A stretch of 64,000 bases of DNA from Rhizobium sp. BT04. GTDB lineage: Bacteria > Pseudomonadota > Alphaproteobacteria > Rhizobiales > Rhizobiaceae. How positions within the stretch are numbered: position 1 is the stretch's first letter; the number at the start of each line of letters is the position of its first letter. The translations under genes and the position numbers were made by a program. Location of the stretch: assembly GCF_030053135.1 (NCBI RefSeq), contig NZ_CP125652.1:868001-932000 (forward strand). Reading direction: 5' to 3'. The notes below the pieces were generated by a model. That model made no database searches. It saw nothing but the letters and a program-made list of their open reading frames with translations, and was not told where the DNA came from. Below, in pieces: positions 43,679-55,499 of the stretch.

Positions 43679-44416
<738 letters not shown>

Positions 44417-46919: not shown

Positions 46920-46948
46920 GTGACATCATGCGGTTGCGACGCTACATA
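46920..46948 (+). promoter_or_regulatory. Predicted promoter of the aroG leader
   Basis: GTGACA (46920-46925) and TACATA (46943-46948) match the -35 and -10 boxes with a 17-base spacer. The first base of the leader ATG (46955) is 7 bases after the -10 box, so transcription may begin at or next to the start codon, giving a leaderless mRNA. Confidence 0.5.
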
Positions 46949-46954
46949 CGCCTG

Positions 46955-47029
46955 ATGTCGACCACTTCGATCTACGCCTCGCGATTTTATTGGTACCGCT
47001 GCTTCCAGCGGATGCGGGTCTATGCGTAA
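46955..47029 (+). CDS. Predicted aromatic leader peptide of aroG
   Basis: This 24-codon ORF contains the run SRFYWYRCF: Phe, Tyr, Trp, Tyr and Phe codons at 46985-47005, plus Tyr codons at 46973 and 47021. All three aromatic end products of the pathway started by AroG are sensed. No ribosome binding site is visible, but the predicted transcript starts at its ATG, as in the leaderless trp leader of Sinorhizobium. An in-frame ATG at 46928 is an alternative. The peptide lies before a three-way set of hairpins, as in classical attenuators. Confidence 0.55.
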   Translation: MSTTSIYASRFYWYRCFQRMRVYA

Positions 47030-47085
47030 CTGAAGTCGACGCGACGACAACCCGAACAGCCGCTAGTCTACCTGGCGGCTTTTTT
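46996..47085 (+). promoter_or_regulatory. Transcription attenuator of aroG
   Basis: Segment 1 (CCGCTG, 46996-47001) pairs with segment 2 (CAGCGG, 47006-47011). Segment 2 can instead pair through AGCGG (47007-47011) with segment 3 (CCGCT, 47060-47064). Segment 3 also forms the 5' arm of a 9-bp terminator hairpin (47058-47066 with 47072-47080; one G-U pair) followed by six T. A ribosome stalled on the aromatic codons just before segment 1 would favour the 2:3 form and allow readthrough into aroG. Confidence 0.6.
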
Positions 47086-47119
47086 GTTCCGCCCGGTATG
47101 ACCAAACAGGAGCCATACC

Positions 47120-48181
47120 GTGTCCGATACCATTGATGATCTGCGAATTCTCGAGATCACGCCCCTCACCAAACCCGCCGATATCCTCGCGGAAATCCAC
47201 CGCGACGCTGTTGTCACCGAAACCGTGACCAGCAATCGCGATGCGATCCATAAAATTCTCCAGGGCGAAGGCGATCGCCTGGTCGTCGTCATCGGCCCCT
47301 GCTCCATCCACGACCCCGTTGCCGCCCGGGAATATGCCGCGCGGCTCCAGGAGCAACGACATCGCTTTTCCGACGACCTCGAAATCGTCATGCGCGTCTA
47401 CTTCGAAAAGCCTCGCACCACCGTCGGCTGGAAGGGCCTGATAAACGACCCGCATCTCGACGGCAGCTATCGCATCGAGGAAGGCTTGAGGATTGCCAGG
47501 CGCCTGCTGCTCGACATCAATGCCATGAGCCTTCCGGCCGGCGTGGAATTCCTCGACACGATCACGCCGCAATACATTGCCGACCTCGTCAGCTGGGGCG
47601 CGATCGGCGCTCGCACGACCGAAAGCCAGATCCATCGGCAGCTCGCCTCCGGCCTCTCCTGCCCGATCGGCTTCAAGAACGGCACCGACGGGAGCGCCCG
47701 CGTCGCACTCGATGCGATCCTGGCCGCATCGCAGCCGCATCACTTCCCCGCCGTCACCAAGGACGGACAGGCGGCGATCGCCTCGACGAAGGGCAATGAG
47801 GACTGCCACATCATCCTGCGCGGCGGCAAACAGCCGAACTATGAGGCGGCCGATGTCGAAGCGGTGACCACCGAAGCCGTCAAGCTCGGCGTTGCCCCGC
47901 GCATTCTCGTCGATGCCAGCCATGCCAACAGCGGCAAGGACCCGATGAACCAGCCGCGCGTCGTCAAATCCGTCGCCGCGCAGATCGCCGCCGGAAACCG
48001 CGACATCAAGGGCATGATGATCGAAAGCAACCTTGTTGCCGGCCGCCAGGATCTCCTTCCCGGCAAGCCGTTGGTCTACGGCCAGTCGATCACCGATGGC
48101 TGCATCGACTGGGATATGTCGGTCGCGGTGCTGGAAGACCTGGCACAATCCGCCCGCGAGCGGCGCCGGATTCGCGTTTAG
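47120..48181 (+). CDS. aroG: DAHP synthase, class I (AroFGH type)
   Basis: This 353-residue enzyme joins phosphoenolpyruvate and erythrose 4-phosphate, the first step of the shikimate pathway. The family motifs GPCSIHDP (near residue 60), GVEFLDTITPQY and SWGAIGARTTESQIHR are all present; it resembles the enterobacterial feedback-regulated AroG/F/H isozymes. A GTG start at 47120 follows AGGAG at 8 bases. It appears to be controlled by the attenuator just upstream. A second, unrelated DAHP synthase (class II) is encoded at 54126. Confidence 0.93.
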   Translation: MSDTIDDLRILEITPLTKPADILAEIHRDAVVTETVTSNRDAIHKILQGEGDRLVVVIGPCSIHDPVAAREYAARLQEQRHRFSDDLEIVMRVYFEKPRTTVGWKGLINDPHLDGSYRIEEGLRIARRLLLDINAMSLPAGVEFLDTITPQYIADLVSWGAIGARTTESQIHRQLASGLSCPIGFKNGTDGSARVALDAILAASQPHHFPAVTKDGQAAIASTKGNEDCHIILRGGKQPNYEAADVEAVTTEAVKLGVAPRILVDASHANSGKDPMNQPRVVKSVAAQIAAGNRDIKGMMIESNLVAGRQDLLPGKPLVYGQSITDGCIDWDMSVAVLEDLAQSARERRRIRV

Positions 48182-54125: not shown

Positions 54126-55499
54126 TCAGCCGTTGGCAACCAGGCGTTTCTCGTCGCGGCCGCCCTTCATGCGCTCGGCCAGCAGGAAGGCAAGCTCGAG
54201 CGCCTGGTCGGAGTTAAGGCGCGGGTCGCAATGGGTATGGTAGCGATCCTGCAGGTCGTCGGCGGTAACGGCGCGGGCGCCGCCGGTGCACTCGGTCACG
54301 TCCTTGCCGGTCATCTCGATATGGATGCCGCCGGGATGCGAGCCTTCGGCGCGGTGGATCTGGAAGAAGCTTTCGACTTCCGACAGGATCCGCTCGAAGG
54401 GACGGGTCTTGTAGTTGTTGAGCGTGATCGTGTTGCCATGCATCGGGTCGCAGGACCAGACGACCTTGCGGCCCTCGCGCTCGACGGCGCGAATGAGCTT
54501 CGGCAGGCTCTCGGCAACCTTTTCGTGGCCGAAACGGCAGATCAGCGTCAGGCGGCCGGCTTCGTTCGCCGGGTTCAGAATGTCGATCAGCTGCAGCAGA
54601 TCGTCGGCCTGCAACGACGGGCCGCATTTCAGGCCGATCGGGTTCTTGATGCCGCGGCAATATTCGACATGCGCATGGTCGGCCTGGCGCGTGCGGTCGC
54701 CGATCCAGATCATGTGGCCGGAGGTCGCGTACCAGTCGCCCGAAGTGGAATCGACGCGGGTCAGCGCCTCCTCGTAGCCGAGCAGCAGCGCCTCATGGCT
54801 AGTGAAGAAATCGGTCTCGCGCAAGCTCGGATGATTTTCCGAGGTGATGCCGATCGCCTTCATGAAATCCATGGTTTCGCTGATGCGGTCGGCAAGCTTG
54901 CGGTAGCGCTCGCCCTGCGGGCTGTCCTTGACGAAGCCGAGCATCCACTGATGCACGTTTTCGAGATTGGCGTAACCGCCCATCGCGAAGGCGCGCAGAA
55001 GGTTCAGCGTCGCTGCCGACTGGCGGTAGGCCATGGCCTGGCGTTCCGGGTTCGGAATGCGCGACTCCTCGGTGAATTCGATGCCGTTGATGATGTCGCC
55101 GCGATAGGCCGGCAGCGTGACATCGCCCTGTTTCTCGACATTCGACGAACGCGGCTTGGCGAACTGGCCGGCGATGCGGCCGACCTTGACGACCGGCAGC
55201 TGCGCGCCGAAGGTCAGCACGACGGCCATCTGCAAGAAGGCGCGGAAGAAGTCGCGAATATTGTCTGCGCCGTGTTCGGCAAAGCTCTCGGCGCAGTCGC
55301 CGCCCTGCAGCAGGAAGCCGTTGCCTTCGGCGACATTGGCAAGATGCTTTTTCAGGCGGCGCGCTTCACCGGCAAAGACGAGCGGCGGATAGCTGGCGAG
55401 CGTGGCTTCCGTTGCCGCCAAAGCGGCTGCGTCGGGATATTCCGGAACCTGCAGGATCGGCTTTTGCCGCCAGCTGCTCGGGGTCCAATTCTCTGCCAT
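54126..55499 (-). CDS. aroF: DAHP synthase, class II (plant-like)
   Basis: This 457-residue enzyme catalyses the same reaction as the class I enzyme at 47120 but belongs to the plant-type class II family. Typical parts are QQ-/GDCAESF ([10 protein letters not shown], near residue 85), [14 protein letters not shown] (near 123), CDPMHGNT and [15 protein letters not shown]. It is longer and unrelated in sequence to class I. Class II enzymes are typically the main DAHP synthase in rhizobia. I chose the ATG at 55499 after GAGGTGA; a GTG at 55508 is an alternative. Confidence 0.93.

Follow-up and report, generated by a model that had tools for sequence, protein, structure and literature searches.

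Results

Organization of the region upstream of aroG

The window, that is the whole stretch of 64,000 nucleotides of Rhizobium sp. BT04 DNA that was analysed, contains the gene aroG, whose product matches the TIGR00034 model (aroFGH) with 517.6 bits for a cut-off of 173.2. Between a promoter-like sequence and aroG lie a short open reading frame (ORF), two alternative sets of RNA pairings, an intrinsic terminator and a hairpin around the ribosome binding site (Table 1). On re-reading the sequence, all the parts that an earlier note on this DNA had named were found where it had placed them, in the order of a classical attenuator. The leader ORF encodes the peptide MSTTSIYASRFYWYRCFQRMRVYA, followed by TAA, and 6 nt separate its ATG from the -10 box. 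The terminator is made of 9 pairs, including one U.G pair, with a loop of 5.

aroG is present in 47 of 60 genomes of the genus, this one included, and a class II DAHP synthase in 60 of the 61 relatives searched. No aromatic leader was seen upstream of the class II gene of the window or upstream of pheA in the same genome; trpE(G) of this genome is preceded by a Trp leader of the known rhizobial type (trpL, MIKSLNIAVWWWAR). At gathering thresholds, no Rfam family matched the window over the aroG leader, the only matches being Cobalamin and Atu_C7 elsewhere, and a search of 10 leader loci at E values up to 1 found none over the leader either. A T-box or riboswitch at this position was rejected for lack of an Rfam match. 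Ten leader peptides gave no NCBIfam match and one chance Pfam match (E 0.089).

Table 1. Features of the aroG leader locus and of its neighbourhood in the window
Feature	Position	Strand	Remarks
Predicted promoter: -35 GTGACA (46920-46925), 17-nt spacer, -10 TACATA (46943-46948)	46920-46948	+	Read in sequence
Leader ORF, 24 codons and TAA	46955-47029	+	ATG at 46955; no Shine-Dalgarno word upstream
Putative control codons 11-14: Phe TTT, Tyr TAT, Trp TGG, Tyr TAC	46985-46996	+	
Hairpin 1:2, CCGCUG (46996-47001) with CAGCGG (47006-47011)	46996-47011	+	
Predicted antiterminator 2:3, AGCGG (47007-47011) with CCGCU (47060-47064)	47007-47064	+	
Predicted inner helix of antiterminator, CGGGU with ACCCG	47015-47019 with 47050-47054	+	Added in this analysis
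Intrinsic terminator 3:4	47058-47085	+	47058-47066 with 47072-47080; six T at 47080-47085
Hairpin CGGUAUG/CAUACCG	47094-47120	+	aroG Shine-Dalgarno AGGAG (47108-47112) in loop
aroG, class I DAHP synthase, 353 aa	47120-48181	+	GTG start at 47120; TIGR00034 match
Class II DAHP synthase	54177-55487	-	6 kb from aroG; both enzyme classes in window
Cobalamin riboswitch, 120.3 bits	44411-44597	-	Strand of ORF 43679-44374
Match to Rhizobiales sRNA Atu_C7, 53.6 bits	14818-14957	+	

Promoter and predicted start of the leader

Across the 44 loci of the genus that carry the leader, the best -35 hexamer is GTGACA (27 loci) or TCGACA (17 loci), and the spacer between the -35 and -10 boxes is 17 nt long in 43 of them (range 16-17 nt). 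The distance from the -10 box to the leader ATG is 6 nt in 42 loci and 7 nt in the other 2. A Shine-Dalgarno-like word occurs within 20 nt of the leader start in 6 of the 44. Transcription is predicted from this layout to start at or next to A46955, and the leader peptide is apparently leaderless. Other alphaproteobacterial leaders mostly have the same promoter layout. In Burkholderiales leaders, a TATAAA-like box seems, by eye, to lie about 40 nt upstream of the ATG.

The leader is conserved in the genus and is not a chance occurrence

Of the 47 aroG loci of the genus, 44 have the leader element upstream of the gene. The leader is 24 codons long, with no indel, in 44/44 loci, the mean column identity in the alignment of the leader regions is 85%, and the spacer between the leader stop codon and the terminator ranges from 26 to 33 nt. 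Over codons 2-9, cells with the minor allele number 67, 62 and 117 at the first, second and third codon positions, a bias of the kind expected in a translated ORF. Three loci (L121-L123) have no leader; their AroG proteins show about 69-70% identity, which could reflect either loss of the leader or a separate acquisition of aroG. The Rhizobium tropici locus (L001; 77% AroG identity) has a leader of the type found in part of the genus.

A covariance model built from the 44 loci, used with strict filters, gave one match in each of the 44 training genomes, as expected by construction; the remaining 56 of the 100 genomes searched gave no match, and no copy without aroG and no second copy was found. 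We also screened for ATG ORFs of 10-40 codons that have at least 4 F/Y/W within 7 residues and a strict terminator within 80 nt. On both strands of the window, this leader (as two nested ATGs) was the sole such ORF, and 20 dinucleotide shuffles of the plus strand yielded 0 combinations of leader and terminator. Unique in the window, absent from the shuffles and kept in nearly all aroG loci of the genus, the element reported in the earlier note thus stands above chance.

Conserved aromatic codons

Conservation of the aromatic run in close relatives, which had been proposed as a check, was borne out: Phe11 and Tyr12 are each found in 44/44 genus leaders, and position 14 is aromatic in 44/44 (Tyr in 41, Phe in 3). 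Codon 13 is variable, with Ser in 23 leaders, Trp in 17 and Tyr in 4, and so are the aromatic residues found elsewhere (codon 7 in 34/44, codon 17 in 3, codon 23 in 11). The locus therefore has what is found at known attenuators, a short leader ORF with codons for an end product of the pathway presumably controlled. Judged from the codons, the constant signals of the genus leader are Phe and Tyr. Joint sensing of Phe, Tyr and Trp, as initially suggested, can hold for this strain and for 16 of the 43 other genus leaders, but not for the rest, in which codon 13 specifies Ser or Tyr. An aroG tree with 31 labelled loci, to which L112, a Trp-bearing locus of the other subgroup, did not belong, requires at least 3 changes between Ser and Trp at codon 13.

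For Phe, the leaders mostly use TTT, a disfavoured codon, where aroG uses TTC. TTT makes up 45 of 66 Phe codons in genus leaders versus 7 of 141 in aroG, and 160 of 205 versus 68 of 396 in other taxa, the loci in these counts not being independent of each other. CGA stands directly before the aromatic run in genus leaders; it accounts for 2 of 118 CGN codons in four genes of the window. The identity of the sensor codons (TTT, CGA) appears to be selected.

RNA structures

In hairpin 1:2, pairing is kept in 98.8% of cells over 43 distinct rows, with two pairs in which both sides have changed, and its covariation score was reached by 0 of 500 shuffles. The locus thus has the protector hairpin of a trp/phe-type attenuator, and this hairpin covaries. 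The terminator 3:4 is paired in 99.7% of cells and includes one covarying pair; its fold has an energy of -15.2 kcal/mol (z -4.88), and none of 200 shuffles was equally good. As in attenuators of the trp/phe type, this stem followed by six T is a strong intrinsic terminator. Its U.G pair is invariant in 43/43 distinct rows, plausibly as a compromise, since the same U has a G as its partner in the terminator and the A of AGCGG in the antiterminator.

The antiterminator 2:3 is paired in 93.0% of cells in the genus, with no covariation above shuffles within the genus. The search for covarying stems suggested in the earlier note thus succeeded for hairpin 1:2 and for one terminator pair, but not for the antiterminator. 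Taken alone, the 5-bp antiterminator word of the window does no better than in a shuffled leader tail (p 0.59), and the fold of 47006-47068 is unexceptional (z -1.0). The same single-sequence shuffle test gave p <= 0.05 in 39 of 107 loci, none of which belongs to the genus. In this set of 107 loci from many taxa, which are not independent and were collected with a pattern requiring a GGCGG terminator 3' arm, strand 3 reads CCGCC in 62 loci and CCGCU in 45. GGCGG is found in the leader tail of 57 of the 62 CCGCC loci and of 17 of the 45 CCGCU loci; AGCGG is found in 44 of the 45 CCGCU loci and in 5 of the 62 CCGCC loci. From one lineage to another, the words of strands 2 and 3 thus change in step. 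Two loci are absent from these sets, one because of a single base in its T-run (L092) and one because too little upstream DNA was available (L133). The alternative pairing originally described (AGCGG with CCGCU) is right but incomplete: in the model, the switch seems to be aided by the inner helix CGGGU/ACCCG.

Directly upstream of aroG, the hairpin core GGUAU/AUACC is found in 43/44 genus loci, the pattern having missed the remaining one (L090); each pair of the core is broken or a wobble in 1 to 3 cells. In the window this hairpin ends on the G of the aroG GTG start. It may possibly constitute a second, translational layer of control.

A folding model of ribosome stalling

When the full-length leader of the window was folded at equilibrium, the terminator won at every ribosome position tried, so that the switch would have to be kinetic. 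The decision is likewise kinetic in textbook trp attenuation. Full-length equilibrium folding was dropped as non-discriminating and replaced by a scan of the nascent RNA, in which the transcript ends before the terminator 3' arm and the ribosome hides positions P-12 to P+15. In this model, placing the A-site at codon 11, 12, 13 or 14 gives the window leader an antiterminator pairing of 0.89, 0.99, 0.98 and 0.98, respectively; the values do not exceed 0.08 at codons 2-10 or 0.03 at codons 15-25. The medians over the 44 genus loci follow a profile of the same shape, with 0.92, 0.99, 0.98 and 0.96 at codons 11-14. With strand 2 fixed at 53-57, pairing is above 0.5 at these four codons in 37, 37, 38 and 32 of the 44 loci; 6 to 12 loci, depending on the codon, stay at or under this value.

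The assumed footprint, of which nine versions were tried, shifts the edges of the permissive window by one codon. At P+13, codon 11 falls to 0.01 and codon 15 climbs to 0.80; at P+17, codons 10 and 14 reach 0.51 and 0.54. Codons 12 and 13 are the only ones above 0.9 under all nine footprints. In a control where the words of strands 1-3 were kept and the rest was shuffled 100 times, a stall at codon 13 gave a median of 0.09, with 17% of shuffles above 0.9, so that the short strand words do not make the switch by themselves. When strand 3 is free to pair anywhere in the leader tail, the best stall exceeds the stop codon position by more than 0.2 in 44/44 genus loci and in 38 of 63 loci outside the genus. 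Outside the genus, the permissive window mostly extends from codon 2 to about where the aromatic run stops. In the 63 non-genus leaders, aromatic codons make up 342 of 715 codons inside the permissive window versus 68 of 783 outside. Three of these loci (L036, L037 and L062) have no permissive aromatic codon in the scan.

Related leaders in other Proteobacteria

We then considered the relatives of AroG outside the genus, using the best 80 of at least 591 matches, a set biased toward high similarity. Among these 80, 50 loci have a leader and a terminator by a strict rule: 13 of 14 in Hyphomicrobiales, 29 of 31 in Burkholderiales, 7 of 7 in Lysobacterales and one unclassified; none was found in Enterobacterales (0/4), Nitrosomonadales (0/4) or Rhodocyclales (0/5). 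In Burkholderiales and Lysobacterales too, aroG follows aromatic leaders that share this terminator core, and the leader can no longer be regarded as a rhizobial speciality. A quick tree of 88 AroG rows, with presence or absence assigned by hand and 4 loci left unlabelled, requires at least 5 changes in leader presence. In the class as a whole, aroG itself is patchy, being found in 8 of 289 genomes drawn. A tally of ATG leaders overlooked two loci, one with a GTG leader containing RFY at the same promoter spacing by eye (L002), the other with just two adjacent aromatic residues in its leader (ARFYPR, L131).

Two loci stand out. One is in a Pseudogemmobacter record (Rhodobacterales, L028) with a long AroG branch, whose leader ends with FRSCQRMRAAV and whose strand 3 is CCGCU, as in the genus; gene and switch were perhaps transferred together. 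In the other, from Candidatus Burkholderia (L035), the terminator is kept but the frame of the leader is interrupted downstream of the aromatic run, a configuration that suggests decay of the sensor in an endosymbiont.

Discussion

The data presented here indicate, with a probability that we put at roughly 90%, that the 46920-47120 region is a ribosome-mediated transcription attenuator of aroG with an apparently leaderless leader peptide. In agreement with the earlier proposal, promoter spacing, hairpins, the TIGR00034 match, the covariance model and the folding scan all point to such an element ahead of a gene for a class I DAHP synthase. From the conserved parts, their co-occurrence with aroG and the geometry of the folding model, we infer the transcription start, translation of the leader, stalling and the effect on aroG. 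Transcription would begin at the leader AUG or right beside it, and ribosomes would read the 24 codons without a Shine-Dalgarno site. A shortage of charged tRNA-Phe or tRNA-Tyr, and in this strain also of tRNA-Trp, would stall them at codons 11-14. The stalled ribosome would hide strand 1 and leave strand 2 (AGCGG) exposed, allowing it to pair with strand 3 (CCGCU), aided by CGGGU/ACCCG, before the terminator 3' arm exists; with the antiterminator formed, aroG would be transcribed. When charging is adequate, the ribosome would reach the stop codon, covering the inner helix, and strand 2 would be taken by strand 1; with strand 2 lost, the terminator would form ahead of aroG. In this model, aroG is very probably switched on only when the aromatic amino acids encoded in the leader run short.

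Three other explanations can be considered. The leader might have its own 5' untranslated region, or begin further upstream at ATG 46928 or TTG 46841, and would then be an attenuator that is not leaderless. The reading frame is indeed open upstream of the leader ATG in the window, and the box of Burkholderiales leaders seemingly lies at a distance that would suit a 5' untranslated region. However, upstream extensions of the leader are found in a minority of genus loci only, and the spacing between promoter and ATG is 6 or 7 nt in 44/44, so that we regard such a start as unlikely. It is less probable still that the ORF is the gene of a small functional protein with its own terminator, standing by chance before aroG and devoid of any regulatory role. 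The fixed length of the peptide in all 44 loci and the strong conservation of residues 9-19 would suit such a gene, and the S. meliloti leader peptide peTrpL is described in PMC7298713 as having a function of its own. Nevertheless, the peptide is conserved where the RNA strands and the stall codons lie, its N-terminal third being variable; the codons found permissive in the folding scans are those of the aromatic run; and none of the 100 genomes searched has the element without aroG. Moreover, outside the genus the peptide differs, but the aromatic run and the terminator core stay.

Control could also be exerted on the translation of aroG, the 47094-47120 hairpin presenting or hiding the Shine-Dalgarno sequence and the terminator-like stem acting as a partial stop. 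The conserved hairpin directly upstream of the aroG GTG, its loop holding AGGAG, is what one would expect in this case. Yet the 3:4 stem and its six T form a strong intrinsic terminator, and strand 4 and the ribosome binding site do not overlap. Both levels of control could coexist; we see very little likelihood that translational control is the whole explanation.

If transcription attenuation is indeed at work, the entry step of aromatic synthesis would be under direct control of the aminoacyl-tRNA supply and not of a repressor. Four adjacent codons would decide, one of which is naturally found to encode Trp, Ser or Tyr. Such control would also explain how an optional class I enzyme (47/60 genus genomes) is kept silent beside the class II enzyme (60/61 relatives). 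In the non-genus leaders, one and the same switch would have been rebuilt in a different sequence, the codon window tracking the aromatic run. More tentatively, and at less than even odds, a single homologous and so far undescribed cassette may accompany AroG-type DAHP synthases across alpha-, beta- and gammaproteobacteria. This cassette would have become leaderless and band-pass in the Rhizobium-like lineage, only four codons triggering it, with Trp toggled by a single-base change at codon 13 (TGG/TCG) that retunes which end products are heard; its terminated leaderless mini-mRNA of about 131 nt may, like rnTrpL, also work in trans.

The mechanism is classical, but a conserved aroG example with relatives in several proteobacterial groups seems, provisionally, to be undescribed so far. 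The literature searched, to which the 2004 survey of proteobacterial attenuators by Vitreschak et al. does not belong, yielded no attenuator for a proteobacterial aroG. The statement in the earlier note that no case was known for a DAHP synthase in rhizobia holds to that extent, but there is a precedent in Corynebacterium glutamicum, whose DAHP synthase gene aroF is attenuated via the aromatic leader aroR (Neshat et al. 2014, as described in PMC11802643 and PMC4046766). As described there, aroR also encodes a leader peptide upstream of a DAHP synthase gene, with a Phe-Tyr-Phe run, and stalling raises transcription. That system belongs to another phylum and, in the account given in PMC11802643, only Phe and not Tyr is effective, whereas the leader described here has the run Phe-Tyr-(Trp/Ser/Tyr)-Tyr and relatives in several Proteobacteria; the two are set apart by description, not by sequence. 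A predicted element, uORFC-13-1 upstream of aroF in Acholeplasma, likewise combines a Phe-codon upstream ORF and a terminator before a DAHP synthase gene, but it has a Shine-Dalgarno sequence and its 24 representatives come from Acholeplasma and environmental sequences, as reported in PMC8632094. In E. coli, pheL-pheA and pheST share a Phe-rich leader ORF and control by termination, according to PMC11802643, but their targets are a branch enzyme or a tRNA synthetase.

In its predicted mode of initiation, the leader resembles trpL of S. meliloti (rnTrpL/peTrpL), in which the mRNA begins at the AUG and the ORF is translated (PMC7298713, PMC10117765). These reports bear out the premise of the earlier note that trp attenuation in Sinorhizobium uses a leaderless leader peptide. 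As in trpL-trpE(G), an apparently leaderless leader peptide and an intrinsic terminator precede the first gene. By contrast, as described, trpL has 14 codons, responds to Trp only and governs anthranilate synthase, whereas the leader of aroG has 24 codons, would respond mainly to Phe and Tyr and would govern DAHP synthase; action in trans has been shown for S. meliloti trpL (PMC7298713, PMC10117765).
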